Source: Pseudomonadota bacterium (GTDB lineage Bacteria; Pseudomonadota; Gammaproteobacteria; Steroidobacterales; Steroidobacteraceae). From it: a DNA stretch of 64,000 nucleotides. The stretch lies in NCBI GenBank assembly GCA_947449495.1, contig CANFSB010000002.1:62001-126000 (forward strand), read 5' to 3'. The notes under the pieces are model-generated. The model did no database searches. It was not told where the DNA came from and was given only the letters and a program-made list of their open reading frames with translations. Below are positions 38,475-50,591 of this stretch, one piece after another (the stretch's first letter is position 1; every line of letters starts with the position of its first letter). The translations under genes were made by a program, and so were the position numbers.

Positions 38475-39273
38475 GTAGCAATACCGCTGCAGCCACACCG
38501 GCCGCAGCAAGGCGCCACCAGGCAAACACGGTCAAACCATGGCGGTTGAGCCAGCCGACCATCCACTTGACCGAGACCGCTGCTGATACTGCTGCGGCTG
38601 CAAAGCCGACTAGCAATGCTGTCCAGCCATAGGCATCGACCATGCCGGGGCCGACCTTAAGACTTTTGTAGGCCGTAGCTGCGGTAAGTGTCAGCAGGCC
38701 CAGCAGGAATGAAAACTCTACGGCAGCAGCCATAGACAGTCCGACTGCCAGTCCGCCCAGAATAGTGACCAGACTACGGCTTGTGCCAGGCCACATAGCA
38801 ATGCACTGCACCAGACCAATGAGCACTGCCTGCTGCCACTGCAACTGCTCGAGGCTTCGACCTTGATGGCGCTTTTGTATCCAACGTGACAACGCAAGGA
38901 TCACCAGCGCGCCGAGGACCCAGGCAACGATGATCGGCTTAACACCAAACAACACCGCTTCGATGCGTTTGTCGAAGATCACGCCGATGACTGCTGCCGG
39001 CAAGAACGCCGCTATGACAGACAGCGTCAGATTAAGGCCTGTGGCATCGCGGCCCAGCACACCGGTAAGCATTTGTATGACGCGTTGTCGATATAGCCCC
39101 AGCACCGCAAGGATTGCACCTGCTTGAATGACGATGGCATAGGCGTTGGCAGTGTCGCTGGCCTCTATCCCCAACAGACGTTGTGCTATGAGCAGATGAC
39201 CTGTTGAGCTGACGGGCAGGTATTCAGTGATTCCTTCGACCAGGCCGAGGATCAACGCTTGTATCAGGTCCAT
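38467..39273 (-). CDS. uppP: Undecaprenyl-diphosphatase UppP (BacA)
   Basis: UppP recycles undecaprenyl diphosphate to the lipid carrier used for peptidoglycan and other surface polymers. The 268-residue membrane protein has both active-site motifs, EGITEYLPVSSTGHL near the N-terminus and MWPGTSRSLVTILGG in the second half. The ATG shares a base with the S8 peptidase stop (TAATG); a longer frame up to 39303 is rejected as it lies in the peptidase gene. Bacitracin tolerance is a known effect of this family. Confidence 0.95.
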   Translation of the reverse strand: MDLIQALILGLVEGITEYLPVSSTGHLLIAQRLLGIEASDTANAYAIVIQAGAILAVLGLYRQRVIQMLTGVLGRDATGLNLTLSVIAAFLPAAVIGVIFDKRIEAVLFGVKPIIVAWVLGALVILALSRWIQKRHQGRSLEQLQWQQAVLIGLVQCIAMWPGTSRSLVTILGGLAVGLSMAAAVEFSFLLGLLTLTAATAYKSLKVGPGMVDAYGWTALLVGFAAAAVSAAVSVKWMVGWLNRHGLTVFAWWRLAAAGVAAAVLLHA

Positions 39274-41270
39274 TAAATATTCCCGTAGCGAGTGTTGCGC
39301 CAACCGCGCAGCGCGATAAGTCCGGTCAGCAGCAGTAGCAACCAGGATGAGAAACGGCCGCCGCCACCTGAACTGGCGCTTGACGACGGCGGGGGTGCGG
39401 CCGAAGCAGTCAGTGTGAGGTCAGCGGTATCGGTGAGTGCATAGTCGTCGGTAATGATGACGCGCAGGGTGTAGCTGCCTGCTTGGCTCAGGACGACGCT
39501 GGCCTTGGCGCTGCTGCCATTGGTCAGTGTCGCGGTGGCGCCGGCGGGGCTGCTGACGACCGACCACATATAGGTAACAACCGTGTGTCCTGCCACAGCG
39601 GTGCTGCCGCTTGCATCCAATGCTGCGCTTTGACCGGCAGTCACTGCGCCGCCGCCGGTGGCCACAGCCGTGGGCTTGGCGGCCAAAGTGATCGCAGCAC
39701 CCACATCAAGCATTCCCGCGCCGCAGATACCCGCTGCACAGATGCATTCACTGCCTTGGACGTCTTTACTGTCTACCGGCAGATGGCAAGCCGGCGGCGC
39801 CGGTGTGGTGGTGCTGGTAGTTGGAAACGTACGGGCCGATGCTTTTAGGCGTGCAATCACCTGTGAGGGCGATAGCATTGGATTGGCTGCCATCACCAGG
39901 CCTGCGGCCGCAGCCGCCAAGGGCGCTGAGAAGCTGGTGCCAACGTTAGTGCGGTACTGATCCGTATAGGTCGGACTCACCGGGACTGTGGTGCCGCTGT
40001 CTGTGGTGGTGTCCAGCGAGAAAAGGCAGGGGTCCCCGGCACCAGTAAGTACACAGTTGCCCGCCGGGGCGGAGATGCCTACTTCAGCACCCAGATTGCT
40101 GTAGCCGACTTTGGTGCCGATGTGGCGCAGACCGCCAACACCGAGCACCCCTGCACAATTGGCAGGAGCATCCACTGGCCCACCTTCGTTGCCAGCAGAG
40201 GCCACAACCACGACGCCCTTATTTGTGAGGTCTTGAATCACGGTGTTATAGGCGGCAGGACAGCTGCCCACACCACCGAGACTTAGATTGATGACCTGCG
40301 CCGGATTGGGGTTGGCGGCGGGTGTGCCTGCCAGCAGCGGCGGCGGAATGCTCAGGCCCGCAGCCCAATACATACCAGCGATGACATCCGAGTCATAACC
40401 ACCACACTTGCCCAGCACGCGTACTGGTAGTATCCGCACGTTGTAGGCAGCACCCGCAATGCCAATGCCATTGTTGGTATCGGCGCCGATCATTCCTGAC
40501 ACTCGCGTGCCATGCCAACTGCTGCTGGTGGGTTGGTCATTGTTGGTGCCGGCGCCGCACTTCTTGCCGGCATAGACCGGATTGGCTAAATCTGCAACGG
40601 AGATAAAGTCACCCGGGTCGCTGGGATCCGTGTCCCAGCCATCACCGTCATTGGCCGAGGTGAAGTTGCCCGGCTTGTCGGCAGACACAAAGTCATACCC
40701 TGGCAGCAGTTTGCCGCCCGCAGCAGCACGGCGCAGATCCGGGTGATCAAACCGCACGCCGGTGTCGAGCACTGCAACCACCACAGGCACACCAGAAACT
40801 GCACCGATACCCTTGGTGAAATCCCAAGCACTATTTGCGCGGATGGCTGCAATTTCCTGCGCCTGCAGGTACCACTGTTTGGCATACAGCGAGTCCCCTG
40901 GCGTCGTTACGTTTGCGTGTACACGCCGATCGGGCACTGCCAAGGCTATCTGAGGATCGCTGCGCAGCAGGGCCAATACTTGATCTAGCGCTACGCCTTG
41001 TGTCATGGCATCGAGTTGCAACACATGCAGGTTGCCACCCAAAGCATGATGCGCACGCAATGCCACGCCCGCACGGCGACCGCTGGCGCGCACCTGGGTA
41101 TCGAACTGCTCATCGACCGAGGTTTGGTTGGCACTGCGCCATTGCACGATGATTCGGTCGGTCGCCTCTACGGGAGCCGCTTGCGCCAACCCGCCGCAGT
41201 ACAGCGCGAGGGTCGCCAGAAGGGCCGCCGAAGCGGGCCTGCAAATGCGTGCGAGGCGTGTGGTGTTCAT
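39273..41270 (-). CDS. Subtilisin-like S8 serine protease with GlyGly-CTERM-type tail
   Basis: The 665-residue secreted protease has a signal peptide (cut near LAQA, about 31), a propeptide to about 120, and an S8 domain with catalytic Asp169 (VAVLDTGV), His253 (SSWHGTRVSG) and Ser446 (NVGTSFSAP). An Ig/PKD-like domain follows at about 540-625. The tail is GlyGly-CTERM-like: a Ser/Gly run ending GGGG, then a hydrophobic helix (SSWLLLLLTGLIAL) and basic residues (RGWRNTR). Such tails are cut by rhombosortase and direct a protein to the surface through type II secretion. It diverges from the Tad operon across 117 bases and shares a transcript with uppP. Confidence 0.9.
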   Translation of the reverse strand: MNTTRLARICRPASAALLATLALYCGGLAQAAPVEATDRIIVQWRSANQTSVDEQFDTQVRASGRRAGVALRAHHALGGNLHVLQLDAMTQGVALDQVLALLRSDPQIALAVPDRRVHANVTTPGDSLYAKQWYLQAQEIAAIRANSAWDFTKGIGAVSGVPVVVAVLDTGVRFDHPDLRRAAAGGKLLPGYDFVSADKPGNFTSANDGDGWDTDPSDPGDFISVADLANPVYAGKKCGAGTNNDQPTSSSWHGTRVSGMIGADTNNGIGIAGAAYNVRILPVRVLGKCGGYDSDVIAGMYWAAGLSIPPPLLAGTPAANPNPAQVINLSLGGVGSCPAAYNTVIQDLTNKGVVVVASAGNEGGPVDAPANCAGVLGVGGLRHIGTKVGYSNLGAEVGISAPAGNCVLTGAGDPCLFSLDTTTDSGTTVPVSPTYTDQYRTNVGTSFSAPLAAAAAGLVMAANPMLSPSQVIARLKASARTFPTTSTTTPAPPACHLPVDSKDVQGSECICAAGICGAGMLDVGAAITLAAKPTAVATGGGAVTAGQSAALDASGSTAVAGHTVVTYMWSVVSSPAGATATLTNGSSAKASVVLSQAGSYTLRVIITDDYALTDTADLTLTASAAPPPSSSASSGGGGRFSSWLLLLLTGLIALRGWRNTRYGNI

Positions 41271-41387: not shown

Positions 41388-41642
41388 ATGATTAACACCA
41401 AGCGCTGCCGCGGGCAGGGCATGACCGAATACATCGTGGTGGTTGCGCTAGTGGCAGTGGCGGCCATTGGTGTCTATACCGCCTTTGGCAAGACTTTGCG
41501 TGGGCAGATGGCGGCTACGGCGCAATCGCTGGCGGGCAAAAGCACCAGCCAGGCGCGCAGCGATAGCAACGATGCGGGTGAGGAGGCAGAAGCCCAGGCC
41601 GGTCGAGCCATCAAGCTCGACAACTTCGACCAGGTGCGTTGA
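41388..41642 (+). CDS. Flp/TadE-like pilin subunit (class III leader)
   Basis: This 84-residue protein starts MINTKRCRGQGMTEYIVVV. The short basic leader and G-QGMT-EY fit the Tad prepilin site (cleavage after Gly, Glu at +5, Tyr at +6), followed by a 20-residue hydrophobic helix. After it comes a soluble tail rich in Ala, Ser, Asp and Glu. The mature size, about 75 residues, fits a Flp pilin or minor pilin. GGAGG lies about 9 bases before the ATG. It opens a nine-kb operon and is the best candidate for the main subunit, though 44322-44495 competes. Confidence 0.75.
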   Translation: MINTKRCRGQGMTEYIVVVALVAVAAIGVYTAFGKTLRGQMAATAQSLAGKSTSQARSDSNDAGEEAEAQAGRAIKLDNFDQVR

Positions 41643-42959
41643 ATGCTGCGGCATCAAGCGGCGGGTCAGGCGTTGGTTCCGGCACTGGGCTTTGCCGCCC
41701 TCCTGGCAGCGCTACTGTTGTGGGTGGTGGGTCTAGGTCAGACGATCACCGACAAGATTCGTTTGCAGAACGCCGCTGATGCCGCAGCCTACAGCGCCGC
41801 CCAGTGGCAAGCGCGCGCGCTGAACTTTCAGGCCTATACCAACCGGGCCATCGTTGCCAATGAAGTGGCCATAGCGCAGTTTGTCAGTCTGCGTTCCTGG
41901 TCGCAGTACGTGCAGCAGACACTGGGCAACACCGCGGCAGTGGGTCGCTATGTGCCGCCCGCAGCGGCCACCTTGCAAGCACTGTCACGGGGCTGGTCTG
42001 CCGTCAACAGTGGCATTCAATCCACGTTGCCTCTGATCGAGACAGGCATCAGTCATTGGAATGTGGATGTGCTGGCGCGCACGCAAGCCATCGCTCATCA
42101 ACAAGCGTTGATCGGCTCAGCAGAACTAGTGCCACAGGTCGCGCGTTACCACGATCCTCGCATTGAGGTGGCAGGCGGTACACGCCTGTTGCAGCTTGCC
42201 AATGCCGCCGGCTGGCAGAACCGCCTGACTGCGCGCTACAGGCGCGGGTCCGGCGAGTTGGCGCGTGTGTCGCAGTTACTCATGGATTCACGCGATGGCT
42301 TCAGTGCCGAGCGGCGCAATAATCTGCTGTTCTCCAATCCACTGCTAAAACTTCCAAAGCGTGGCGGTACAGACCTGTTGGCTGAACGTGGTTGGCGGGG
42401 CATGGATAGCCTGTCCCTGCATATCAATTACTTTTTCGGATCAACCGAAGTGCCATATGGCTGGGGTGCAGCCGAGAACCGCTTGCAGCCAGTGACTGTG
42501 CGCGGAGTGCATGGTGGCAGTTGGAACGACAATTACCGCGCCACGCGCAATGCCGAGCGCGCGTTAGTCGCACGCACCGGCTATTCAGGCTTGCCCGAAG
42601 TGCGTGACATCGTTCAGCCGCAGCGCCAGCAGGATCTGCGGCTGGGTTATTCAGTGCATCTGGCTTTGCCGCAACAGCGTTTGTGGACTGCAGCGCGTGA
42701 GGTAACCCCCGCACTGCACTTACCCTCTGGCGATGTTTTGCACCTGGGTACCACACTGCCCAGTGACGCATTGCATGCTTTGGCCTCTGCCGAAGTGTTC
42801 TTTCAAAGGCCGACTGAACGTGCCGATGGCAGGGCGGAGTACCCGAGCCTGTTTAATCCGTATTGGCAGGTGCATCTGCTGCCAGTCAGTGCCCGTACAC
42901 GCAGCCTCACTGCACCAAGCCGTGGTGTGGCGTTAGATCCTTATGCGGTGTTGCCGTGA
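41643..42959 (+). CDS. TadG-like pilus assembly protein
   Basis: The 438-residue protein has a single N-terminal membrane helix in GQALVPALGFAALLAALLLW, the start typical of the TadE/G-like group, and then a NAADAAAYSAAQWQARALNF segment as in TadG-like proteins. The Glu of the class III motif is Pro here. The large remaining part is probably periplasmic and has no recognised domain such as a VWA fold. It starts on the base after the preceding stop and overlaps the next gene by 4 bases. Confidence 0.7.
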   Translation: MLRHQAAGQALVPALGFAALLAALLLWVVGLGQTITDKIRLQNAADAAAYSAAQWQARALNFQAYTNRAIVANEVAIAQFVSLRSWSQYVQQTLGNTAAVGRYVPPAAATLQALSRGWSAVNSGIQSTLPLIETGISHWNVDVLARTQAIAHQQALIGSAELVPQVARYHDPRIEVAGGTRLLQLANAAGWQNRLTARYRRGSGELARVSQLLMDSRDGFSAERRNNLLFSNPLLKLPKRGGTDLLAERGWRGMDSLSLHINYFFGSTEVPYGWGAAENRLQPVTVRGVHGGSWNDNYRATRNAERALVARTGYSGLPEVRDIVQPQRQQDLRLGYSVHLALPQQRLWTAAREVTPALHLPSGDVLHLGTTLPSDALHALASAEVFFQRPTERADGRAEYPSLFNPYWQVHLLPVSARTRSLTAPSRGVALDPYAVLP

Positions 42960-43699
42960 AACGCATGACTGGGCAGGCACTGATCGAGTTCTGCGTCATG
43001 GTTGGTGTCTTTGTGGCGCTGGGCATCGGCATGCAGGTCCTGTCTGGTTGGCAGCGTTTGCAGCGGCAAGCTGTTATTGCGGCACGCGAGACGGCCTTCA
43101 GTGCGGCATGGAATCCGCGACTGCCCAGTACCCAAGACCTGCAGGCGCGTTTGTATGCACTGCACTTGGACGCAGTGGGGACTGTGGCGCCGATCACCGG
43201 CCAGTCCCTGCTGCAGCAGGATCCTGGGCCAACGGTGCAAGTCGCGGATGCGCCACCGCCTGGCACTACGCCCGGTTTGTTGCTGCAAGTTCTGCGTCCC
43301 TTGCAGGCCGTTGGGGGTTTTCTCGGCTCCGATTTCTCACTTTCACAGCAGGGCTTTACGCAAGCGACTGTTGCATTGCGCATGGCAGATTTGCCGACAT
43401 TGCCTACTCCCTGGGCTAGTGCTGCGCTGCAAGTAGAAGAGCACTCAGCTGTGCTCGGTGATGACTGGTCTGCTGCTGGTCCGGCACAGGTCGCCCAGCG
43501 CACGGGAGGGCTCGTGCCTACCGCCGTATTGGCTCGACAGGCCGCAGTGCTGCGGCCGTTGCTGTGGCCGGCCCGGCTCATCGAGCCGGCACTTGGGCGG
43601 CTGTGTTTAGGGCTTATCGAACCGGAGCGCGTGCCGGTCGATCGCCTTGCTGGTTCGGTTGCCGCTGCTGCCCAGCCTGGGGATGCCACATGTCACTGA
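42956..43699 (+). CDS. TadE-like minor pseudopilin
   Basis: The 247-residue product starts at a GTG in a GTGA overlap; its N-terminus has KRMTG-QALI-EF, the class III site G-x4-E-F, and then a hydrophobic helix (CVMVGVFVALGIGMQVL). The remaining 215 residues have several Pro-rich turns and no recognised domain. It fits the TadE/TadF minor pseudopilin group by leader, position and size. ATG 42965 is an alternative start. Confidence 0.65.
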   Translation: MKRMTGQALIEFCVMVGVFVALGIGMQVLSGWQRLQRQAVIAARETAFSAAWNPRLPSTQDLQARLYALHLDAVGTVAPITGQSLLQQDPGPTVQVADAPPPGTTPGLLLQVLRPLQAVGGFLGSDFSLSQQGFTQATVALRMADLPTLPTPWASAALQVEEHSAVLGDDWSAAGPAQVAQRTGGLVPTAVLARQAAVLRPLLWPARLIEPALGRLCLGLIEPERVPVDRLAGSVAAAAQPGDATCH

Positions 43700-44325
43700 G
43701 AGCGGCAGCAACAGGTCTTCTTGTGGCGTTGTGGCCAGTAGAGGTGCCAGCCCAGCTGCCGCCGTATCCAAATGTCATAAGTGAAGAATTGCCTTCGTCG
43801 CTGCGCATCAACGGGCTATCGGTAGAGATCACCCACCTTAGCGGTACAGGTGTTCCCGGATTGATCCGCACCTTGGCACAGCGCTGGCGTGTGGCTGCTA
43901 TGGCGCAAGGGGACTGGTTGCAGTTGGCGCATCAATCCAATGGCTGGTCAGAGGTGTTGCAGTGGCGCCCGGAAAGCGCTTCAACCGAAGCGCTGTACTC
44001 GCGCCTGCGCGTGGATCAGTCGCCGGGGCCGCCGGCAACGCTGTCCCTACAGCTACCGGCTGTCTGTCAAAGCCGCAGCTACCTTCAACTCGGTAGCACC
44101 GCACAACCGGTGCTGCAGCTTACCGCCCGCTGCGAGGGCAGTCTGAATCTGGTGCAGTCATTGCTACTGCAAGCGGCAAAGCGCAGCGGTTGGCGAGTGG
44201 CGGACGGTGCTGCTCCACCGCGGCTGTGGACTCGCAGCGGATTGGCGTTGCAACTCGATGTCCTGCAATCACCTCAGGGTGTGGTGCTGGTTGCCTTGCA
44301 ACACGGTCGGGCATCACAGCCATGA
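43690..44325 (+). CDS. Unrecognised periplasmic protein of the Tad operon
   Basis: This 211-residue frame has a Sec signal (AAATGLLVALWPVEVPAQ) and no other membrane segment. The mature part includes two Cys (in PAVCQSRSYL and TARCEGSLNL) that may form a disulfide. Repeated short strands such as LAQRWRVAAMAQGDW and AAKRSGWRVADG suggest two related alpha/beta modules, possibly similar to secretin N-domains or to TonB-box-type periplasmic modules. It overlaps both neighbours (10 and 4 bases), so it is translated with the pilus genes. A role as a periplasmic part of the machine, perhaps replacing RcpB or TadD, is inference. Confidence 0.6.
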   Translation: MSLRAAATGLLVALWPVEVPAQLPPYPNVISEELPSSLRINGLSVEITHLSGTGVPGLIRTLAQRWRVAAMAQGDWLQLAHQSNGWSEVLQWRPESASTEALYSRLRVDQSPGPPATLSLQLPAVCQSRSYLQLGSTAQPVLQLTARCEGSLNLVQSLLLQAAKRSGWRVADGAAPPRLWTRSGLALQLDVLQSPQGVVLVALQHGRASQP

Positions 44326-44495
44326 ACACCGCATCCCAACAGGGCCAGGCCTTGGCCGAGTACCTGCTGTGTACAAGCGTGCTGGTGAGCGCCTTGCTGG
44401 TGCCGTGGTGGGGGGGCGAACCGGTGGTAGTGCAATGGGTTCATGTGCTGCGCGAGTGGGTGCAGTCCATCACCTGGTTGTTGGCGCTGTCTTGA
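44322..44495 (+). CDS. Second small Flp-like pilin with class III leader
   Basis: The 57-residue protein reads MNTASQQGQALAEYLLCTS at its start: a short leader, G-QALA-EY cleavage site and a hydrophobic helix to about residue 30. The mature form would be about 49 residues, with a Trp-rich C-terminus. The ATG overlaps the preceding stop (ATGA); CpaB follows after 13 bases with a GGAGG site. Small size and leader fit Flp pilins, but the Trp-rich end and Cys are unusual. Confidence 0.65.
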   Translation: MNTASQQGQALAEYLLCTSVLVSALLVPWWGGEPVVVQWVHVLREWVQSITWLLALS

Positions 44496-44508
44496 ATCTG
44501 GAGGCTTG

Positions 44509-45390
44509 ATGAAAATATCTACATTTTGGGCAGGTGCTGTCCGATCCAACCTGTTGCTCGGTGCGGCAGCACTATTGGCTGGCACGGCTGCTTTTTTGCT
44601 GGCCAAGCACTACCTCGCTAGTCAGGCCGCGCTGCTCGAGCAGCAGTTCGCACAGCGGCTGCAAGCGCGCCCGGTCCTGGTGGCAGCAAAGCCTTTGGCC
44701 ACCGGCGATGTGGCAGCAGAGGGCAGTCTTGCTAGGCGGGACATGCCGGTCAGTTTTTTGCGCGGTGATGCTTTGGATCCACAAGCTGCCAATCGCATCG
44801 CAGGTCGACGTGTATTGCACCCCGTTGCAGCAGGGGATGCACTCGCGGACACAGATTTCGCACCACGCTCCACGCCTGCCTTAGCTGCGGTGCTCCCTGC
44901 CGGCCAGCGTGCATTCACCGTGGCTGTAGACGAGGTGGCAGGCCAGTCGGGCCTCCTGCGTGCCGGCGACAAAGTAGATGTGTACTGGCAACACCAACGC
45001 GGCAGCGACATAGCAATGGTCACTTTGCTGCTACAGACGGTGCCGGTGTTGGCAACAGGTCGTCAAATTGCCGGGCAATCGCCTGCGGCTAGCGCTGCTG
45101 AGTTCAGCACTATCACGCTGCAGGTGGACGCCGACGACACCGCGCGCCTGCTGCTGGCTCAGCGTAGTGGTCAGCTGGCCGTGGTGCTGCGAGGCAGCGC
45201 AGATACCCAACAGCAGACGCTGAAAATTCGTGACAGCCGGCAGTTGTCGCAGCGCGTCAGCGGCATTAACAGCACAGCTGCGCCCGATCCACCGTTGCAG
45301 GTGATTGTCGGTGGCAGTGGGGCCGCAGTTGCACCAATGCAAAACCTGCCGGTGAGCCCGCAGATCTTTCCCAACGGAGGCCTTCCATGA
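44509..45390 (+). CDS. cpaB: Flp pilus assembly protein CpaB (RcpC)
   Basis: CpaB is a periplasmic, membrane-anchored component linked to the secretin. The 293-residue protein has an N-terminal membrane helix (LLLGAAALLAGTAAFLLA), a SAF domain with PVLVAAKPLATGDVAAEG and RRVLHPVAAGDALADTD, and the family-typical VLPAGQRAFTVAVDEVAGQSGLLRAGDKVDVYW. Strong GGAGG ahead of the ATG; overlap with cpaC (ATGA). Confidence 0.93.
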   Translation: MKISTFWAGAVRSNLLLGAAALLAGTAAFLLAKHYLASQAALLEQQFAQRLQARPVLVAAKPLATGDVAAEGSLARRDMPVSFLRGDALDPQAANRIAGRRVLHPVAAGDALADTDFAPRSTPALAAVLPAGQRAFTVAVDEVAGQSGLLRAGDKVDVYWQHQRGSDIAMVTLLLQTVPVLATGRQIAGQSPAASAAEFSTITLQVDADDTARLLLAQRSGQLAVVLRGSADTQQQTLKIRDSRQLSQRVSGINSTAAPDPPLQVIVGGSGAAVAPMQNLPVSPQIFPNGGLP

Positions 45391-46610
45391 TGCGTCGCAT
45401 AGTGCTGCTGTTGATGGTGCTGTTGTCGGTATCACCTGTCGTGCTGGCAGATCCACTGCCCGATGAATTGACTTTGACGGTTGGCGAAACCCAGTTGCTG
45501 GTAGCTGACGTGCAACGGCTAGCGCTGGGCAGTGGCAGGCTGTTGTCGGTATCGCGTCCCGAACGCGGTCAACTGTTGTTGTTGGCCGAATCAGTGGGCA
45601 CCACCACAGTACAGCTATGGTTGCGCGACGGTAGCCGGCATCGCGTGCGTGTGACTATCCGTGATCAAGACCTGCAGCCGCGGCTTGAACAAGTCCAGCG
45701 CCTACTCGAGGGAACCCGAAACATCACAGCGCATATCGCCGGCAGTCATGTGGTGCTGGAAGGCTTACGTGTCAGTGAGGCTGATCAGTTGCGAGCGGCA
45801 CAGATCACGGAGGGCTTTGGTGGTGTGGTGCTCAACTTCATTGGACGTCTCGGCTGGGAGGCCATGATCCAGATGGAGGTGCGCATCATTGAGGTGCGCC
45901 GTGACAAGTTGCGTGATTTGGGGCTTCGTTGGGATGCGACGGCACAGGGCCCGGTTGCTGGCCTGCGGTTGGGGCAGACGCCCGGCGCACCAGCAGCCAG
46001 CTTTGCCATGGCCAGTCAGTTGGCAACACGCCTCGATCTGCTTGCACAGCAAGGCATGGCAGAGACTGTGGCGCAGCCGCTGCTCAGCTGCCGCAGCGGC
46101 GGTTCCGCTCGCTTTGTATCCGGTGGCGAGGTGCCTATTCCGGTGGTCGACGGCCTCGGCGGCACTGATGTGCAATACAAAGAATATGGCGTGATTCTGG
46201 AGGTCCGGCCCAAGGCCGATGCGGGCGGCTCCATCTATGCAGAGATCGAAGCTGAGCTAAGCCAGATCGACGATGCGGTACGCGTGCAGAACTTTCCCGG
46301 CTTCATCAAACGTCGGTCCGCCACTGCGGTCAACGTGCGGGCTGGTGAAACCATCGTGATTGGCGGCTTGTTGGCGCGCGAGCGCAGTAACAGTCGTCAG
46401 TCGGTGCCCGGCCTGGGTAGGTTGCCTCTGGCAGGCGGTCTATTTGGCTCGCGCCATCGTTTGGAGCGCCAAACCGAACTGCTGGTATTGATCACGCCTC
46501 GATTGGTGGGCGAGGGGCCTATCGGTCCTGCTCAGGTTGCGCCCGCCGAGCAGGTGCAGCGTGCCGATGCTCTGGTCGAGGCCTACACGGTACCTGTAGA
46601 GGCCAAATAA
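45387..46610 (+). CDS. cpaC: Tad pilus outer-membrane secretin CpaC (RcpA)
   Basis: CpaC forms the outer-membrane pore for the pilus. In 407 residues: signal peptide (LLLMVLLSVSPVVLA), pilus-secretin N-domain with LTLTVGETQLL, a BON-like repeat (LEGTRNITAHIAGSHVVLEG), and the secretin beta-domain with QMEVRIIEVRRDKLRDLGL, SARFVSGGEVPIPV, KEYGVILEVRPKAD and VNVRAGETIVIGGLLARE. The C-terminus keeps LLVLITPRLV. It ends 1 base before cpaF. Confidence 0.94.
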   Translation: MMRRIVLLLMVLLSVSPVVLADPLPDELTLTVGETQLLVADVQRLALGSGRLLSVSRPERGQLLLLAESVGTTTVQLWLRDGSRHRVRVTIRDQDLQPRLEQVQRLLEGTRNITAHIAGSHVVLEGLRVSEADQLRAAQITEGFGGVVLNFIGRLGWEAMIQMEVRIIEVRRDKLRDLGLRWDATAQGPVAGLRLGQTPGAPAASFAMASQLATRLDLLAQQGMAETVAQPLLSCRSGGSARFVSGGEVPIPVVDGLGGTDVQYKEYGVILEVRPKADAGGSIYAEIEAELSQIDDAVRVQNFPGFIKRRSATAVNVRAGETIVIGGLLARERSNSRQSVPGLGRLPLAGGLFGSRHRLERQTELLVLITPRLVGEGPIGPAQVAPAEQVQRADALVEAYTVPVEAK

Positions 46611-46611
46611 C

Positions 46612-47877
46612 ATGGATATCACGCCAGAGTTTATCAGTGCTGTGCAGGGCGAGTTGGTTGCGGCACTGGATCTGCGCCGTAACGACATCGCTGGCATGCA
46701 CGACGGGCAACTGCGTGCGTTGGCGCAACGCTGCATTGGCGACATCGTGGCACGCCATGCATTGCCAAACGGCATTGATCGCCAGGGGATCGAGCGACAG
46801 TTGCTGCAGGAGGCAGTTGGGCGCGGAGTCCTCGAAGACTTGCTGTCCGATGATTCGATCACCGAGATCATGGTCAATGGACCCGACGCGGTTTTCATTG
46901 AACGCGCAGGTCGACTTGCGCCAGCGCCCGTGCGGTTTTCCAGCGCGGGCGCGCTGTCCCGCGTCATCGAACGTCTCTTGTCAGACTCGGGTCGTCGTGT
47001 GGACGAGGGCATGCCCATGGTTGACGCTCGCCTTGCAGATGGTTCACGCCTCAACGTGATCATTGGTCCCCTAGCGCTCAACGGTCCGGCGCTGACCATA
47101 CGCAAATTCGCTCGACATGCGCTGAGTCTCGAAGATTTGATTGCACGTGGAGCACTGTCTGCGCAGATGGCGGATCTGTTACGCCATGCTGTGCACCATC
47201 GCCGCAATATTGTGGTGTCCGGTGGGACCGGATCTGGCAAGACGACGCTGCTTAACGTGCTGTCGGCGCTGATACCTGAGACCGAGCGTGTGGTCACCAT
47301 CGAGGACTCTGCCGAGCTGCAGTTGCAGCATCCTAACCGCGTAATTTTGCAGGCGCGTCCAAGCAACCTTGAAGGTCAGGGTACGGTCACCATTCGCGAT
47401 CTGGTGCGCAACGCACTACGTATGCGACCGGATCGAATCGTCATTGGCGAGTGTCGCGGTGCCGAGGCGCTGGACATGTTGCAAGCGATGAACACCGGGC
47501 ACAACGGCTCACTCACGACAGCCCATGCCAATACGCCCCGCGATCTGCTGTCGCGCCTGGAAGTCATGGTTTTGATGGCTGGAATGGATCTGCCCGTGCA
47601 GGCCATCCGCGAGCAGATGGCCAGTGCGGTCAACCTGATTGTGCAACAGGCACGCTTTGCCTGTGGCGCGCGTCGGATTGTCTCGATCACAGAAATAACC
47701 GGCATGGAAGGCGGCCGCGTACAGATGCAGGATCTGTTTCGATTTCAGCAGACCGGCGTGGATGCAGAGGGTCGCAGCCAAGGCCGCTTTGCCGGCTGTG
47801 GAAACCTGCCCGTCTACCTTGAGGGCAGCAACTGTCACGGGCTCGATAGAGGCTTGTTCGACCGGAGAGTGCTGTGA
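46612..47877 (+). CDS. cpaF: Tad pilus secretion ATPase CpaF (TadA)
   Basis: This cytoplasmic hexameric ATPase powers pilus assembly. In 421 residues: an N-terminal three-helix region, a DSITEIMVNGPDAVFIERAG linker, Walker A VVSGGTGSGKTTLLN, the Asp box VVTIEDSAELQL, Walker B MRPDRIVIGECRGAEALDML and the His box TTAHANTPRDLLSRLE. All motifs are intact. It stands alone as motor protein; no second assembly ATPase is present. One-base overlap with tadB (TGATG). Confidence 0.95.
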   Translation: MDITPEFISAVQGELVAALDLRRNDIAGMHDGQLRALAQRCIGDIVARHALPNGIDRQGIERQLLQEAVGRGVLEDLLSDDSITEIMVNGPDAVFIERAGRLAPAPVRFSSAGALSRVIERLLSDSGRRVDEGMPMVDARLADGSRLNVIIGPLALNGPALTIRKFARHALSLEDLIARGALSAQMADLLRHAVHHRRNIVVSGGTGSGKTTLLNVLSALIPETERVVTIEDSAELQLQHPNRVILQARPSNLEGQGTVTIRDLVRNALRMRPDRIVIGECRGAEALDMLQAMNTGHNGSLTTAHANTPRDLLSRLEVMVLMAGMDLPVQAIREQMASAVNLIVQQARFACGARRIVSITEITGMEGGRVQMQDLFRFQQTGVDAEGRSQGRFAGCGNLPVYLEGSNCHGLDRGLFDRRVL

Positions 47878-48722
47878 TGCAAGCACTGACCTCCTTATGT
47901 GTTGCAGTAGCCAGTATGTGTTGCGGCATAGTGTTGTGGCGCAGCGGGGAAGGTCTTGCACAATGGTTGCGGGCAGGGCACAAACGCCTAGCAGAGCGCG
48001 ATCTAGCCGATCTGTTCATTTTCATCGATCCGCGTCGATTGGCGCTGGCCGGTGCCGGCAGTGCGTTGCTGTTGCTGCTTGTACTGTGGTCCGTAGGGTT
48101 GCCGCTGCTGGCCGCGTTACTGCCCGCTTTGGCAACAGTGCTGTGTCCGCGCTGGCTTATCTTTTGGCTACGGGCTCGCCGCAGTCGAAGATTACTGTCC
48201 CAATTGCCCGACGCCCTGGCCTTGCTGGCTGGTTTGCTGCGCTCCGGTCATGGACTGACTCAAGCCCTGTCGCAGCTGGCTTCGCGGCAGGCGGCACCTC
48301 TGGGGCAGGAGTTGCAGCTGCTGCTGCGCAAGCATCGCTTGGGCCTGCCCTTGGATAAGGCGCTGGCCGAGTTGCACCAGCGCGTACCAGAGCCCGATAT
48401 CGCGCTGCTGGCCACAGCGATACGAGTGTCTCGAGAGTTAGGTGGCAACCTTGCCGAAACCTTGCAGCGTTTGGCAGAGGGCGTACGCAGTCGGTTGGTT
48501 TTGCGCGGCAAAATTCACGCGCTGACATCGCAGGGACGGTTGCAGGGCGTGATCGTTGGCCTGATGCCAATGGGATTGATGGCAGTGCTGTCCATCATGG
48601 ATCCGGGGCCTATGGGCTTGCTGTTCTCGACGGTTCCCGGCTGGTGTGCGCTAGCACTGATCCTGCTGCTGGAGGGTGTCGGCTTTTATCTTATACGCGG
48701 CATCATCAGGATCGATGTATGA
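47877..48722 (+). CDS. tadB: Tad pilus inner-membrane platform protein TadB
   Basis: The 281-residue protein is a type II/GspF-like platform component. It has membrane segments near the N-terminus, at about 60-100, and two at the C-terminus, with the T2SF domain in between (LPDALALLAGLLRSGHGLTQAL, LPLDKALAELHQRVPEPD, LGGNLAETLQRLAEGVRSR). TadB and TadC are expected to form a heteromeric platform over CpaF. Start at ATG 47877 within the cpaF stop; stop overlaps tadC (ATGA). Confidence 0.92.
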   Translation: MQALTSLCVAVASMCCGIVLWRSGEGLAQWLRAGHKRLAERDLADLFIFIDPRRLALAGAGSALLLLLVLWSVGLPLLAALLPALATVLCPRWLIFWLRARRSRRLLSQLPDALALLAGLLRSGHGLTQALSQLASRQAAPLGQELQLLLRKHRLGLPLDKALAELHQRVPEPDIALLATAIRVSRELGGNLAETLQRLAEGVRSRLVLRGKIHALTSQGRLQGVIVGLMPMGLMAVLSIMDPGPMGLLFSTVPGWCALALILLLEGVGFYLIRGIIRIDV

Positions 48723-49606
48723 CTGTCTTACCGGTGTTGTTGAGCTGGGCTGCGCCTGTGCTTGCGGCCGTAGCGGCACTGTTGTCAGTGTTGTGCTTGC
48801 GAGGGCTGTCATTGCCCATGCAGCGTGCGCCGTCGGTCGCACGTGTGCTTCCATGGCCACTGCGTGCAGGTTGGTTGCCTGCTCGCTGGGTGGCTGTGAT
48901 GGTGCGCAGGACTGCACCAGCACAGCATTTGAGCCGCATTCAGGCAGAGCTGGCTCGCTGTGATTTGGATTCTGTGTTGGATGCGTCACAGTGGCTCGGT
49001 TTGAGATTGGTAGTGCTTGTCATACTGATGACAGTGGCCATTCTGCTGGCGGTTTCGCTGCAGTGGCAGGCAATACCACTAGCACTACTGGTTGGTGGAT
49101 TGAGCTGGTTGATGACTGGTCGCTGGCTGCACAACCTTAGAGTGGCTCGTGAGAATCAGATACTGAAGGAGTTGCCCGCCAGCTTGGATGTGCTGACCCT
49201 CTGCGTTGAAGCCGGTGCAACGCTCACGGCAGCGTTGCGCATGGTGATGGATAAGGCTCCGGACACCCCATTACGCGGTGTTTTTGAACGTGTGTTGCGT
49301 GAGGTGCGTGCCGGCCGTACTCGCGTCGAAGCGCTTGAGCATATTGCCAGCATCTACAGACTCGATTGCCTCGATGCCTTGGTTAGCGCGTTGCTGCACA
49401 GTGAAGGTGCAGGGGTCAGTTTGGGATCCTTGTTGCGTGCACAGGCCGAACAACGAAGTGCAGAGCGACACTTGCGCGCTGAACGTCTCGCGCTGCAGGC
49501 CCCGGTCAAAATGCTAGGACCGTTGGTGCTGTGTATTTTCCCCTGCACGTTTGTCGTGATCAGCGTACCGATCGTTGCTCGTGTGCTGGAGGCGACAACG
49601 CCATGA
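48719..49606 (+). CDS. tadC: Tad pilus inner-membrane platform protein TadC
   Basis: The 295-residue paralogue of TadB has its T2SF domain at about 150-260, with LPASLDVLTLCVEAGATLTAAL and SIYRLDCLDALVSALLHSEG, a pair of membrane segments at about 100-140 and one at the end (LGPLVLCIFPCTFVVISVPIV). The gene order cpaF-tadB-tadC is the core of all Tad systems. The stop overlaps the DUF192 gene (ATGA). Confidence 0.92.
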   Translation: MTVLPVLLSWAAPVLAAVAALLSVLCLRGLSLPMQRAPSVARVLPWPLRAGWLPARWVAVMVRRTAPAQHLSRIQAELARCDLDSVLDASQWLGLRLVVLVILMTVAILLAVSLQWQAIPLALLVGGLSWLMTGRWLHNLRVARENQILKELPASLDVLTLCVEAGATLTAALRMVMDKAPDTPLRGVFERVLREVRAGRTRVEALEHIASIYRLDCLDALVSALLHSEGAGVSLGSLLRAQAEQRSAERHLRAERLALQAPVKMLGPLVLCIFPCTFVVISVPIVARVLEATTP

Positions 49607-49944
49607 GGCACTGTCGCATCGAGGTCAATCACCGCCGCCTTCGCCAGGTAACGGTGTGTATCTGCCAAACACGCGTGGAGCGTGCCCGGGGTTTGTTGTT
49701 TCGCCGCTGGAGCAGCAGCACTGCACTGCTGCTGCAGGCTTGCAATGCCGTTCATACCTGGGGCATGGATCAGCCGCTGGATCTGCTGTTTTGCGATCAG
49801 GAAGATCGCATCATTCATATGGTCTGCGGTCTGCAGCCGTGGCGCTTCGCCAGACGCTCCAGAGCTCACAGCGTCTGGGAATTCAGAGCGGGTGCCATCA
49901 CCGAGCTGGGTCTGCGCTGTGGAGATCGAATCCGGCCATGCTAA
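49603..49944 (+). CDS. DUF192 family protein in the Tad operon
   Basis: The 113-residue protein resembles DUF192: VERARGLLFRR matches the family's ARGLMFR segment, and HTWGMDQPLDLLFCDQEDRIIHM matches the MxxTxxPLDxxFxDxxxxI stretch. DUF192 proteins are mostly exported, but this one lacks a signal peptide and begins with a basic, Cys-containing segment, so it should be cytoplasmic. It overlaps tadC by 4 and the next pseudopilin by 7 bases. Genes of this family recur in Tad loci; the function is not known. Confidence 0.75.
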   Translation: MRHCRIEVNHRRLRQVTVCICQTRVERARGLLFRRWSSSTALLLQACNAVHTWGMDQPLDLLFCDQEDRIIHMVCGLQPWRFARRSRAHSVWEFRAGAITELGLRCGDRIRPC

Positions 49945-50591
49945 AGCGGGCTCAAGCCGGTGCGACGCTGGTCGAGTTCCAGGTGGTCGGTCTATTGTGT
50001 TTGTTGCCGTTGCTGCTGGGTCTGCTGCAGCTGGCCTTGCTGTTACTTGCTAGCCCGCTGCTGCATTACGCGACCTTCCAAGCTGTTCGGGCCGGCACGT
50101 TTGCCGGTGCTGACCCCGCAGTGATGCGGCGTGCCCTGGCCGTAGGCCTGATGCCCTTGCAGGTTGAGGGTGGCAAAACCCTGAGCGCGTCTAACGCACC
50201 GGGCGTGGCGGCCGCTGCCGCGGCGCGCTCGATGGCCGATGTACTAGTGTTCGCACGCATCACACTGATGCAACCTGGCACGGCAGCGTTTGAAGATTTT
50301 TCGGTCGACACCGCGCAGGGCAGGGCGATACCCAACACCTCGTTGTTGCAGCGCTCTGGCGCGCCGGGACTGCGCAGTGGCAGATCCATTCAGCAAGCCA
50401 ATGTGCTGCAGGTTCGCGTCGATTGGTGCGCGCCCTTGGTCGTGCCGCTGATCGATCGTTTGCTGGTGGGTGTACTGCGCGGGTTGGATGCTGATTTGCA
50501 CAGCCAAGTCTGCTATGCCGCCGGTCGCGTGCCCTTGCGCGGCAGCGCGGCGCTCAACATGCAGTCAGATGTTCGTTTTCACGGCGATTGA
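49938..50591 (+). CDS. tadE: TadE-like minor pseudopilin
   Basis: The 217-residue protein starts MLKRAQAGATLVEFQVVGLL: short basic leader, G-ATLV-EF class III cleavage site, hydrophobic helix to about residue 38. A soluble C-terminal part with two Cys (in RVDWCAPLVVP and SQVCYAAG) follows. This is the classical TadE layout. It is the last gene of the operon, and its 3' end overlaps the convergent nucleotidyltransferase by 13 bases. Confidence 0.8.
   Translation: MLKRAQAGATLVEFQVVGLLCLLPLLLGLLQLALLLLASPLLHYATFQAVRAGTFAGADPAVMRRALAVGLMPLQVEGGKTLSASNAPGVAAAAAARSMADVLVFARITLMQPGTAAFEDFSVDTAQGRAIPNTSLLQRSGAPGLRSGRSIQQANVLQVRVDWCAPLVVPLIDRLLVGVLRGLDADLHSQVCYAAGRVPLRGSAALNMQSDVRFHGD

Follow-up and report, generated by a model that had tools for sequence, protein, structure and literature searches.

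A Tad-type pilus locus of Steroidobacteraceae without TadZ/CpaE or a prepilin peptidase of its own probably represents a distinct, PilD-dependent subtype

The locus at positions 41388-50591 of a 64,000-nucleotide stretch of a Steroidobacteraceae genome (Pseudomonadota; the window, hereafter) probably encodes all of a Tad-type (type IVc) pilus machine and belongs to a distinct subtype, found mostly in Pseudomonadota, which has neither TadZ/CpaE nor its own peptidase and depends on PilD. We put the probability of this reading at roughly 70%. The pilus probably lacks TadZ-based placement at a pole, and the subtype probably uses PilD, the cutting enzyme of another pilus. In the open-access passages that we consulted, we found no description of this subtype as a class.

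The locus is an operon of 12 genes on the forward strand, in which the largest gap is 13 bases and most junctions overlap or abut. An Flp-like major prepilin of 84 aa (41388..41642; predicted cut RG^QGMTEY) is followed by a TadG-like protein of 438 aa (41643..42959; PF13400 Tad, 32.8 bits against a cut-off of 22.3; position conserved) and a TadE-like minor prepilin of 244 aa (42965..43699; G^QALIEF), for which an alternative GTG start at 42956 is possible. A probably exported protein of 211 aa (43690..44325) and a prepilin-like protein of 57 aa (44322..44495; G^QALAEY, a motif conserved in related loci) precede cpaB/rcpC (44509..45390; TIGR03177, 151.2 bits, cut-off 71; PF16976 over its cut-off), the secretin gene cpaC/rcpA (45387..46610; PF00263, 124.3 bits, and PF13629, 38.3 bits, both over cut-off) and the motor ATPase gene cpaF/tadA (46612..47877; 421 aa; PF00437, 222.9 bits, over cut-off). 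The last two lie 1 base apart, with no cpaE between them. The operon continues with the platform genes tadB (47877..48722; matched by profile with tadB from canonical as well as related loci; NCBIfam gave weak matches only) and tadC (48719..49606; PF00482, 62.9 bits, over cut-off; profile match to canonical tadC), a DUF192 gene (49603..49944; PF02643, 50.3 bits, over cut-off) and a second TadE-like minor prepilin of 217 aa (49938..50591; G^ATLVEF). Both TadE-like proteins were recognised by their conserved position and cleavage motif, and neither matched Pfam, its TadE family included. CpaF of the window aligned with CpaF of canonical loci; its best NCBIfam match was TIGR03819 (TadA family; 329.7 bits, under the cut-off of 373.15).

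The preliminary description had reported cpaB, cpaC, cpaF, tadB and tadC, tightly packed, and these genes are indeed present, in that order, with matches to TIGR03177, PF00263, PF13629 and PF00437. Its further statement that only these five core genes are present was right in that the locus contains neither cpaE nor a prepilin peptidase gene, but it overlooked the Flp-like prepilin, the TadG-like protein, the two TadE-like proteins, the 57-aa prepilin, the exported protein and the DUF192 protein of the same block. Further, the exported protein, which matched no family, had a profile match at the same place in 27 of 32 loci of the window's type, and a DUF192 match adjoined tadC in 21 of the 32. 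The AF2 model of the exported protein (pLDDT 85.1) has two alpha/beta domains. The best Foldseek match was MucB (E 2.4e-3, TM 0.22); the best VIA-align match, BamC (Z 6.2), was less than 1 from unrelated folds and below the informative level, and we therefore assigned no fold. A divergent S8 protease gene (39273-41270) adjoins the pilin gene in the window. Among the other loci that we read, an S8 protease was also next to flp in four of the same genus (L128-L131) and was not obvious in six.

TadV is the Tad peptidase. The preliminary description had offered two explanations for the missing genes: that cpaE and cpaA lie elsewhere, or that the variant uses another peptidase such as PilD and does without polar placement. 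When we searched the organism's own genome (a 2.58 Mb assembly of 159 contigs, scored 100% complete) for cpaE, cpaA and pilD, only pilD was found, so that the first explanation did not hold. No second Tad cluster was found there either, and the genome encodes a single CpaF-type ATPase. Its sole A24 prepilin peptidase is PilD, which carries PF06750 and is encoded beside pilB/pilC on a contig of only 8.75 kb; a short A24 peptidase of the CpaA/TadV kind was not found in the genome. The locus contains no tadD. Five small TPR lipoproteins encoded in related loci (not canonical TadD) were combined into a profile, and its best match in this genome was partial, at 31.7 bits, whereas three genomes known to encode such a protein scored 196-230 bits; the window's genus appears to lack this lipoprotein, which occurs in some other loci.

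No CpaE/TadZ was present in the locus or recognisable among the genome's seven ParA/MinD-family matches over cut-off, one of which (contig C6) received no family name from the search. The genome does encode MinD and two FlhG-like proteins, and FlhG is known from other bacteria as a polar factor. One of these proteins could have taken over the role of TadZ, in which case the pilus would be polar after all. We consider this unlikely, since none of the three is encoded near the locus and the ParA/MinD matches to the CpaE profile are confined to its ATPase half. More generally, polar placement could also come from MinD, FlhG or another factor, which counts against the preferred reading.

The four prepilins of the locus keep intact cleavage motifs. 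The 84-aa prepilin has the Flp-type site G^xxxxEY, though its match to Pfam Flp_Fap (PF04964) was below cut-off (19.2 bits against 32.2). G-1, Q+1, E+5 and Y+6 were invariant across 19 aligned Flp-like pilins, and the motif was present in all 27 loci with a match to this pilin. Among loci with a match, the motif was also present in 26/26 for the 57-aa prepilin, 27/29 for the 217-aa TadE-like protein and 22/28 for the 244-aa one. Of 370 genomes sampled from the class, 35 had this pilin type. The short pilin, the three minor prepilins and the S8 protease gene beside the pilin gene in the window and four same-genus loci would also suit a filament for protein export or DNA uptake instead of an adhesive pilus; this is improbable in our view, and the six loci without an obvious S8 protease neighbour argue against it.

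Compared with a genome of the same genus (G002), dN/dS was 0.016-0.295 for all 12 genes. Judged from these sequence comparisons, the locus is not a remnant, and purifying selection acts on all 12 genes. It is thus very improbable that the Tad locus is truncated and decaying and has stopped making a pilus. Such decay would account for the absence of components that model systems need and for the splitting of the window-type cpaF over two overlapping frames in one genome (G011); further, a similar second locus of Kerstersia gyiorum is described as truncated and, for lack of flp, "likely to be null" in the published account of the cluster (PMC6461280). Against it, all 12 genes are open, with dN/dS far below 1, the gene order is kept across genera, the cleavage residues are invariant in the aligned pilins, and an flp-like gene is present, below the Pfam cut-off.

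Single absences could be gaps, since the assembly consists of 159 contigs and the PilD contig is short, but gaps are unlikely to recur in genome after genome: six further genomes of the genus with the window's CpaF had no full-length CpaE and no non-PilD A24 peptidase, and the same absence was seen in 12 named genomes, some recorded as isolates, so that it is scarcely credible that the organism has CpaE and CpaA and the assembly missed them. Further, a regular-expression search of the stretches around all 19 named loci of the window's type detected no MinD-type P-loop ORF or A24-motif ORF near the locus.

We counted 25 genomes as having only the window's CpaF type (E <= 1e-60). Exactly one A24 peptidase was encoded in 23 of them, two in one and none in one, and every A24 peptidase in these 25 genomes also carried the PilD-type domain PF06750. 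Thus the second explanation of the preliminary description, a variant served by another peptidase such as PilD, agrees with the sole A24 peptidase of the organism and with the 23 genomes that have only a PilD-type enzyme. When 23 of the 25 genomes (all except G008 and G011) were searched with the CpaE profile, no match among the best ones listed spanned both CpaE halves. Seven named genomes carry a canonical CpaF in addition. In these, all 10 A24 peptidases without PF06750 and all 11 full CpaE matches (E <= 1.2e-39) lay within 10 kb of a canonical CpaF, a natural experiment that supports the use of PilD by the window's type. Some genomes count against this reading: G004 encodes two PilD-type peptidases and G007 (82% complete) no A24 peptidase. 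There was also no A24 match in G020 (100% complete), where a canonical locus accompanies one of the window's type, despite its PilB/GspE-type ATPase, or in G027 (canonical type, 91% complete).

The window's gene order recurs in beta- and gammaproteobacteria. In the CpaF phylogeny, a check that the preliminary description had proposed, the window's type formed one group of 31 rows (19 named loci, the window and 11 loci of its family) with an SH-aLRT of 94, just under the program's star at 95. This group was separate from CpaE-bearing CpaF, including those from the same family and order; because the tree is unrooted, it is compatible with loss of CpaE and with later gain. Judging by these sequence comparisons, an entire group of loci has this layout as its normal state, and "reduced", the term used earlier, fits only partly.

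Among 98 CpaF loci, a CpaE neighbour occurred in 31, a fused MinD-type domain in 12 (mainly in Bdellovibrionota and Omnitrophota) and an FHA domain on CpaF in 39, and these were never found together, a pattern that rests on 4-6 independent pairs or changes. CpaE status here refers to the stretch around CpaF. Of the 55 tree rows with neither CpaE nor a MinD fusion, 39 thus had FHA, and the remaining 16, the window's among them, had none of the three. The 80 named loci were the top-ranking ones among at least 588 confirmed matches to the window's CpaF, so the proportions are not population frequencies. Two loci with partial CpaF (L143 and L144) were left out of the tree, and L144 also out of the Pfam scan; L049, L096 and L135 end near contig ends, which makes their FHA or CpaE status uncertain. 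The window's CpaF has no N-terminal MinD domain and had no FHA match in the domain scan. Relatives outside its family carry FHA on CpaF, and the domain is also missing in several loci of the family. Tentatively, and with somewhat more doubt than conviction, we suggest that Tad motors follow mutually exclusive placement designs, namely TadZ/CpaE, a fused MinD-type domain or FHA, and that the window's lineage represents a fourth, without a dedicated placement module and with a peptidase shared with T4aP.

The canonical Tad/Flp locus is flp-tadV-rcpCAB-tadZABCDEFG, or cpaABCDEF in Caulobacter. The window's locus resembles it in the CpaF motor, the TadB/TadC pair, CpaB, the CpaC secretin, a short pilin with Glu+5 and Tyr+6, and TadG-like and TadE-like proteins. 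It differs in having no TadZ/CpaE, TadV/CpaA or TadD, in its own fixed gene order with the DUF192 protein, the exported protein and the 57-aa prepilin, and in its separate CpaF group. The nearest studied relative is the Kil system of Myxococcus. Its motor KilF has FHA, like CpaF of the window's named relatives and unlike that of the window, and clusters where the cell touches its prey, not at one specific site in the cell. Kil has retained a short peptidase (KilA), whereas the window's locus has none, and two Myxococcaceae loci taken as Kil-type (L063 and L071) fall on another CpaF branch. The main text of the Kil paper names no TadZ or CpaE and calls TadD missing (PMC8460266). By the published account, KilA is not the peptidase that cuts the major Kil pilin, and PilD has been suggested instead (PMC12075869).

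In the PilD-dependent reading that we prefer, all four prepilins (the Flp-like, the 57-aa and both TadE-like ones) would be cut at G^Q or G^A by PilD from the pilBCD cluster. CpaF would then drive extension, and perhaps retraction, via TadB/TadC and the CpaB-CpaC conduit, in a machine that would not be placed by a TadZ at the pole. Two points weigh against PilD. Gln at +1 is unusual among PilD substrates, and Flp of P. aeruginosa is reportedly cut by FppA and not by PilD, so that the use of PilD is not a given. By analogy with the assembly of KilF at contact sites, FHA on CpaF of the relatives may replace TadZ and could recruit the motor by contact or a phospho-signal. In the window's genus, the motor may be recruited by the platform itself, with no fixed site or with a site marked by an outside factor; recruitment by the platform is the simplest, since this genus apparently lost FHA on CpaF too. 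TadZ has been described as a polar hub that recruits other Tad parts (PMC6668835). That a subtype without TadZ and TadV is conserved and widespread suggests that the machine needs neither, and this subtype offers an uncluttered case for studying what determines where a Tad pilus sits.

Loci of this kind can be missed or discarded when annotation relies on TadZ, TadV or the Pfam Flp family, which may have been the case in Kerstersia. The second, "incomplete" tad cluster of K. gyiorum is described as tadE-orf-rcpCA-tadABC, with no tadZ, tadV or tadD listed and no flp (PMC6461280). Compared by this published description, it shares with the window the order tadE, unknown gene, cpaB, cpaC, cpaF, tadB, tadC. 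The MSHA (MSH) pilus is likewise a type IV filament without its own peptidase; according to the published account, its loci may use the peptidase of another system, and it differs in belonging to another branch of the superfamily, derived from T4aP (PMC6668835).

The window contained 12 closely packed genes on the + strand (41388-50591), in which the biggest gap was 13 bases and most junctions overlapped or abutted. In order, these were flp-like, tadG-like and tadE-like (tadE1) genes, a gene for an unknown, probably exported protein, a gene for a 57-aa prepilin, cpaB, cpaC, cpaF, tadB, tadC, a DUF192 gene and a second tadE-like gene (tadE2). In family searches, cpaB, cpaC, TadG-like, TadC and DUF192 passed curated cut-offs. 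The pilin scored 19.2 bits against Flp_Fap (cut-off 32.2), and annotation based on Flp_Fap would therefore miss it. A single base separated the end of cpaC from the start of cpaF, which leaves no room for cpaE. Beside the pilin gene, on the - strand (39273-41270), we observed a gene for an S8-type serine protease, with its best NCBIfam match below cut-off. Its C-terminus was glycine-rich, hydrophobic and basic, and we take it to resemble GlyGly-CTERM tails.

We analyzed the whole genome (G000; 2.58 Mb in 159 contigs, completeness score 100%, window at G000:C2:62001-126000). The motor ATPase domain PF00437 had nine matches, among which the window's CpaF was the sole CpaF. PilB was confirmed by TIGR02538, and the others were assigned by eye as one GspE-like protein, five PilT-like frames (L004-L008; three in tandem on contig C50, two on C39) and one weak match. 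The only A24 prepilin peptidase adjoined genes reading as pilC and pilB, carried the PilD-type N-terminal domain (PF06750) and, by eye, kept the GxGD motif and two CxxC pairs. A profile built from 11 CpaE proteins detected no full CpaE in G000; its five matches were all half-length, one spanning the receiver-like half and the other four the ATPase half (about 129-392). The preliminary description of a Tad locus lacking CpaE and a peptidase of its own was right, and no recognisable CpaE or CpaA-type gene was found anywhere in the genome.

AAA_31 matched nine proteins of G000, seven over cut-off. MinD, BchL and Mrp/ApbC exceeded curated cut-offs; a ParA/Soj-type and two FlhG-like proteins had family matches below cut-off and were named also from their neighbours by eye, and one protein on contig C6 had no family name. 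Two stretches, L013 (G000:C64:8220-11201) and L014 (G000:C46:1-3196), each read by eye as FlhF-FlhG-FliA, suggesting two flagellar systems in this 2.58 Mb genome. The BchL match (L016, G000:C6:960-4109; TIGR01281, 452.1 bits) indicates that the organism probably makes bacteriochlorophyll.

With the window's CpaF we fetched 80 named loci, of which 19 (L024-L038, L043, L044, L046 and L049) had the window's gene order as far as their contigs extended; cpaC adjoined cpaF wherever both fell within the stretch. The exceptions in order were two Acidithiobacillus loci (L034 and L035) without tadB and tadC between cpaF and tadE2; L035 had a tadB-like gene on the opposite strand at the stretch end. A regular-expression search found no A24-motif ORF or MinD-type P-loop ORF in any of the 19 (at most 10 kb either side). 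Seventeen were labelled Pseudomonadota, L026 was titled deltaproteobacterium and L046 carried no lineage. Among the window's relatives, CpaF was found at E <= 1e-60 in 20 of 60 genomes (G000 counted), and 19 stretches taken from them comprised 13 window-type and 6 canonical loci. DUF192 matched in 21 of 32 window-type loci.

In a tree of 98 CpaF rows, the window grouped with all 19 named loci and 11 from its family, 31 rows altogether (SH-aLRT 94, slightly under the program's star). The canonical CpaF from within the window's family and order (those of G014, G027, G039, G051 and G058, and G020's second copy) were distant, inside a CpaE-bearing group of 35 rows (support 99). By eye, an S8 protease gene adjoined flp in all four same-genus loci inspected (L128-L131) and a thrA-like gene lay at the other side in three, which points to vertical inheritance of the locus. 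In L144 (G011:C7), the window-type cpaF was split over two overlapping frames and looked broken.

All 12 operon genes were intact compared with the same-genus genome G002, and dN/dS was 0.016 for flp, 0.039 for cpaF and 0.070 for cpaC, with the highest value (0.295) for the 57-aa prepilin. G-1, Q+1, E+5 and Y+6 were invariant across 19 aligned pilins. The cleavage motif [GA]^xxxxE preceding a hydrophobic stretch, counted over profile-matched genes in 32 loci, occurred in flp (27/27), the 57-aa prepilin (26/26), tadE1 (22/28) and tadE2 (27/29). It was present in only 3 of 27 tadG, suggesting that TadG is probably uncut. The locus belongs to a distinct and widespread Tad subtype that lacks TadZ and a peptidase of its own, and its sequence predicts that it is functional. 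The pilin type occurred in 35 of 370 genomes sampled from the class (completeness >=90%), and the subtype is therefore common enough to matter. The sole earlier sighting that we found is an incomplete tad cluster of Kerstersia gyiorum, a probable match by its published gene order, which was dismissed as truncated and likely null (PMC6461280).

A24 peptidases and PilD-type N-terminal domains were counted in the same 40 genomes. In twenty-five, all CpaF matches at E <= 1e-60 were of the window's type: 13 of the window's family (G000-G005, G007, G008, G010, G011, G022, G028 and G034; CpaF in two fragments in G008 and split in G011) and 12 named (G060, G061, G062, G064, G067-G073 and G077). A single A24 was present in 23 of these 25 (a fragment at a contig end in G003); G004 had two, both PilD-type, and G007 (82% complete) had none. 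Seven named genomes (G063, G065, G066, G074, G075, G076 and G078) possessed a canonical CpaF (47-53% identical) in addition. In these genomes, the 10 A24 that lacked PF06750 and the 11 CpaE matches (E <= 1.2e-39) were all on the contig of a canonical CpaF, at most 10 kb from it, and none was at a window-type locus; one canonical CpaF (G078:C129) had CpaE alongside but no A24. Counting against the pattern, no A24 match was found in G020 (both types, L133 and L142; completeness score 100%), despite a PilB/GspE-type ATPase, or in G027 (canonical type, 91% complete). Use of PilD by window-type loci is a well-supported prediction from co-occurrence. Of the two earlier suggestions, the second is supported, a variant served by another peptidase such as PilD and working without polar placement by CpaE; for the latter part, we reasonably infer that the window-type machine is placed non-polarly.

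Pfam FHA was detected in 18 of 32 window-type CpaF (window counted, L144 left out). It was also detected in 19 of the 24 other CpaF that lacked a neighbouring CpaE, and in none of the 31 CpaF that had one. An FHA profile built here added one find to each of the two CpaE-less sets. With it, the 98 tree rows divided into 31 with a CpaE neighbour (FHA in 0), 12 with a fused MinD-type domain (FHA in 0) and 55 with neither (FHA in 39). The 16 rows without any of the three were the window, six loci of its genus (L126-L131), family loci L132, L134, L136 and L137, and L049, L086, L096, L102 and L135, three of these last five being interrupted by contig ends. FHA, CpaE and fused MinD never occurred together, a pattern and no statistical proof, as the distribution rests on only 4 to 6 state changes on the tree. 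The pattern gains weight from Myxococcus, in which the FHA-bearing CpaF, KilF, stays diffuse before contact and then clusters at the prey touch point with no specific cellular site (PMC8460266), and KilP is cut by a peptidase other than KilA, with PilD proposed (PMC12075869). FHA was present in 18 of the 19 named window-type loci (the remaining L049 is cut) and, among family window-type loci in the tree, in G020 alone; the domain was apparently lost in the window's genus. A small TPR lipoprotein gene between DUF192 and tadE2 in L025, L026, L031, L036 and L037 was also missing in that genus. The CpaF frames of about 700-750 aa with an N-terminal MinD/CpaE-type ATPase domain (L045, L060, L062, L067, L070, L073, L077, L078, L081, L083, L095 and L101) were mostly from Bdellovibrionota and Omnitrophota.
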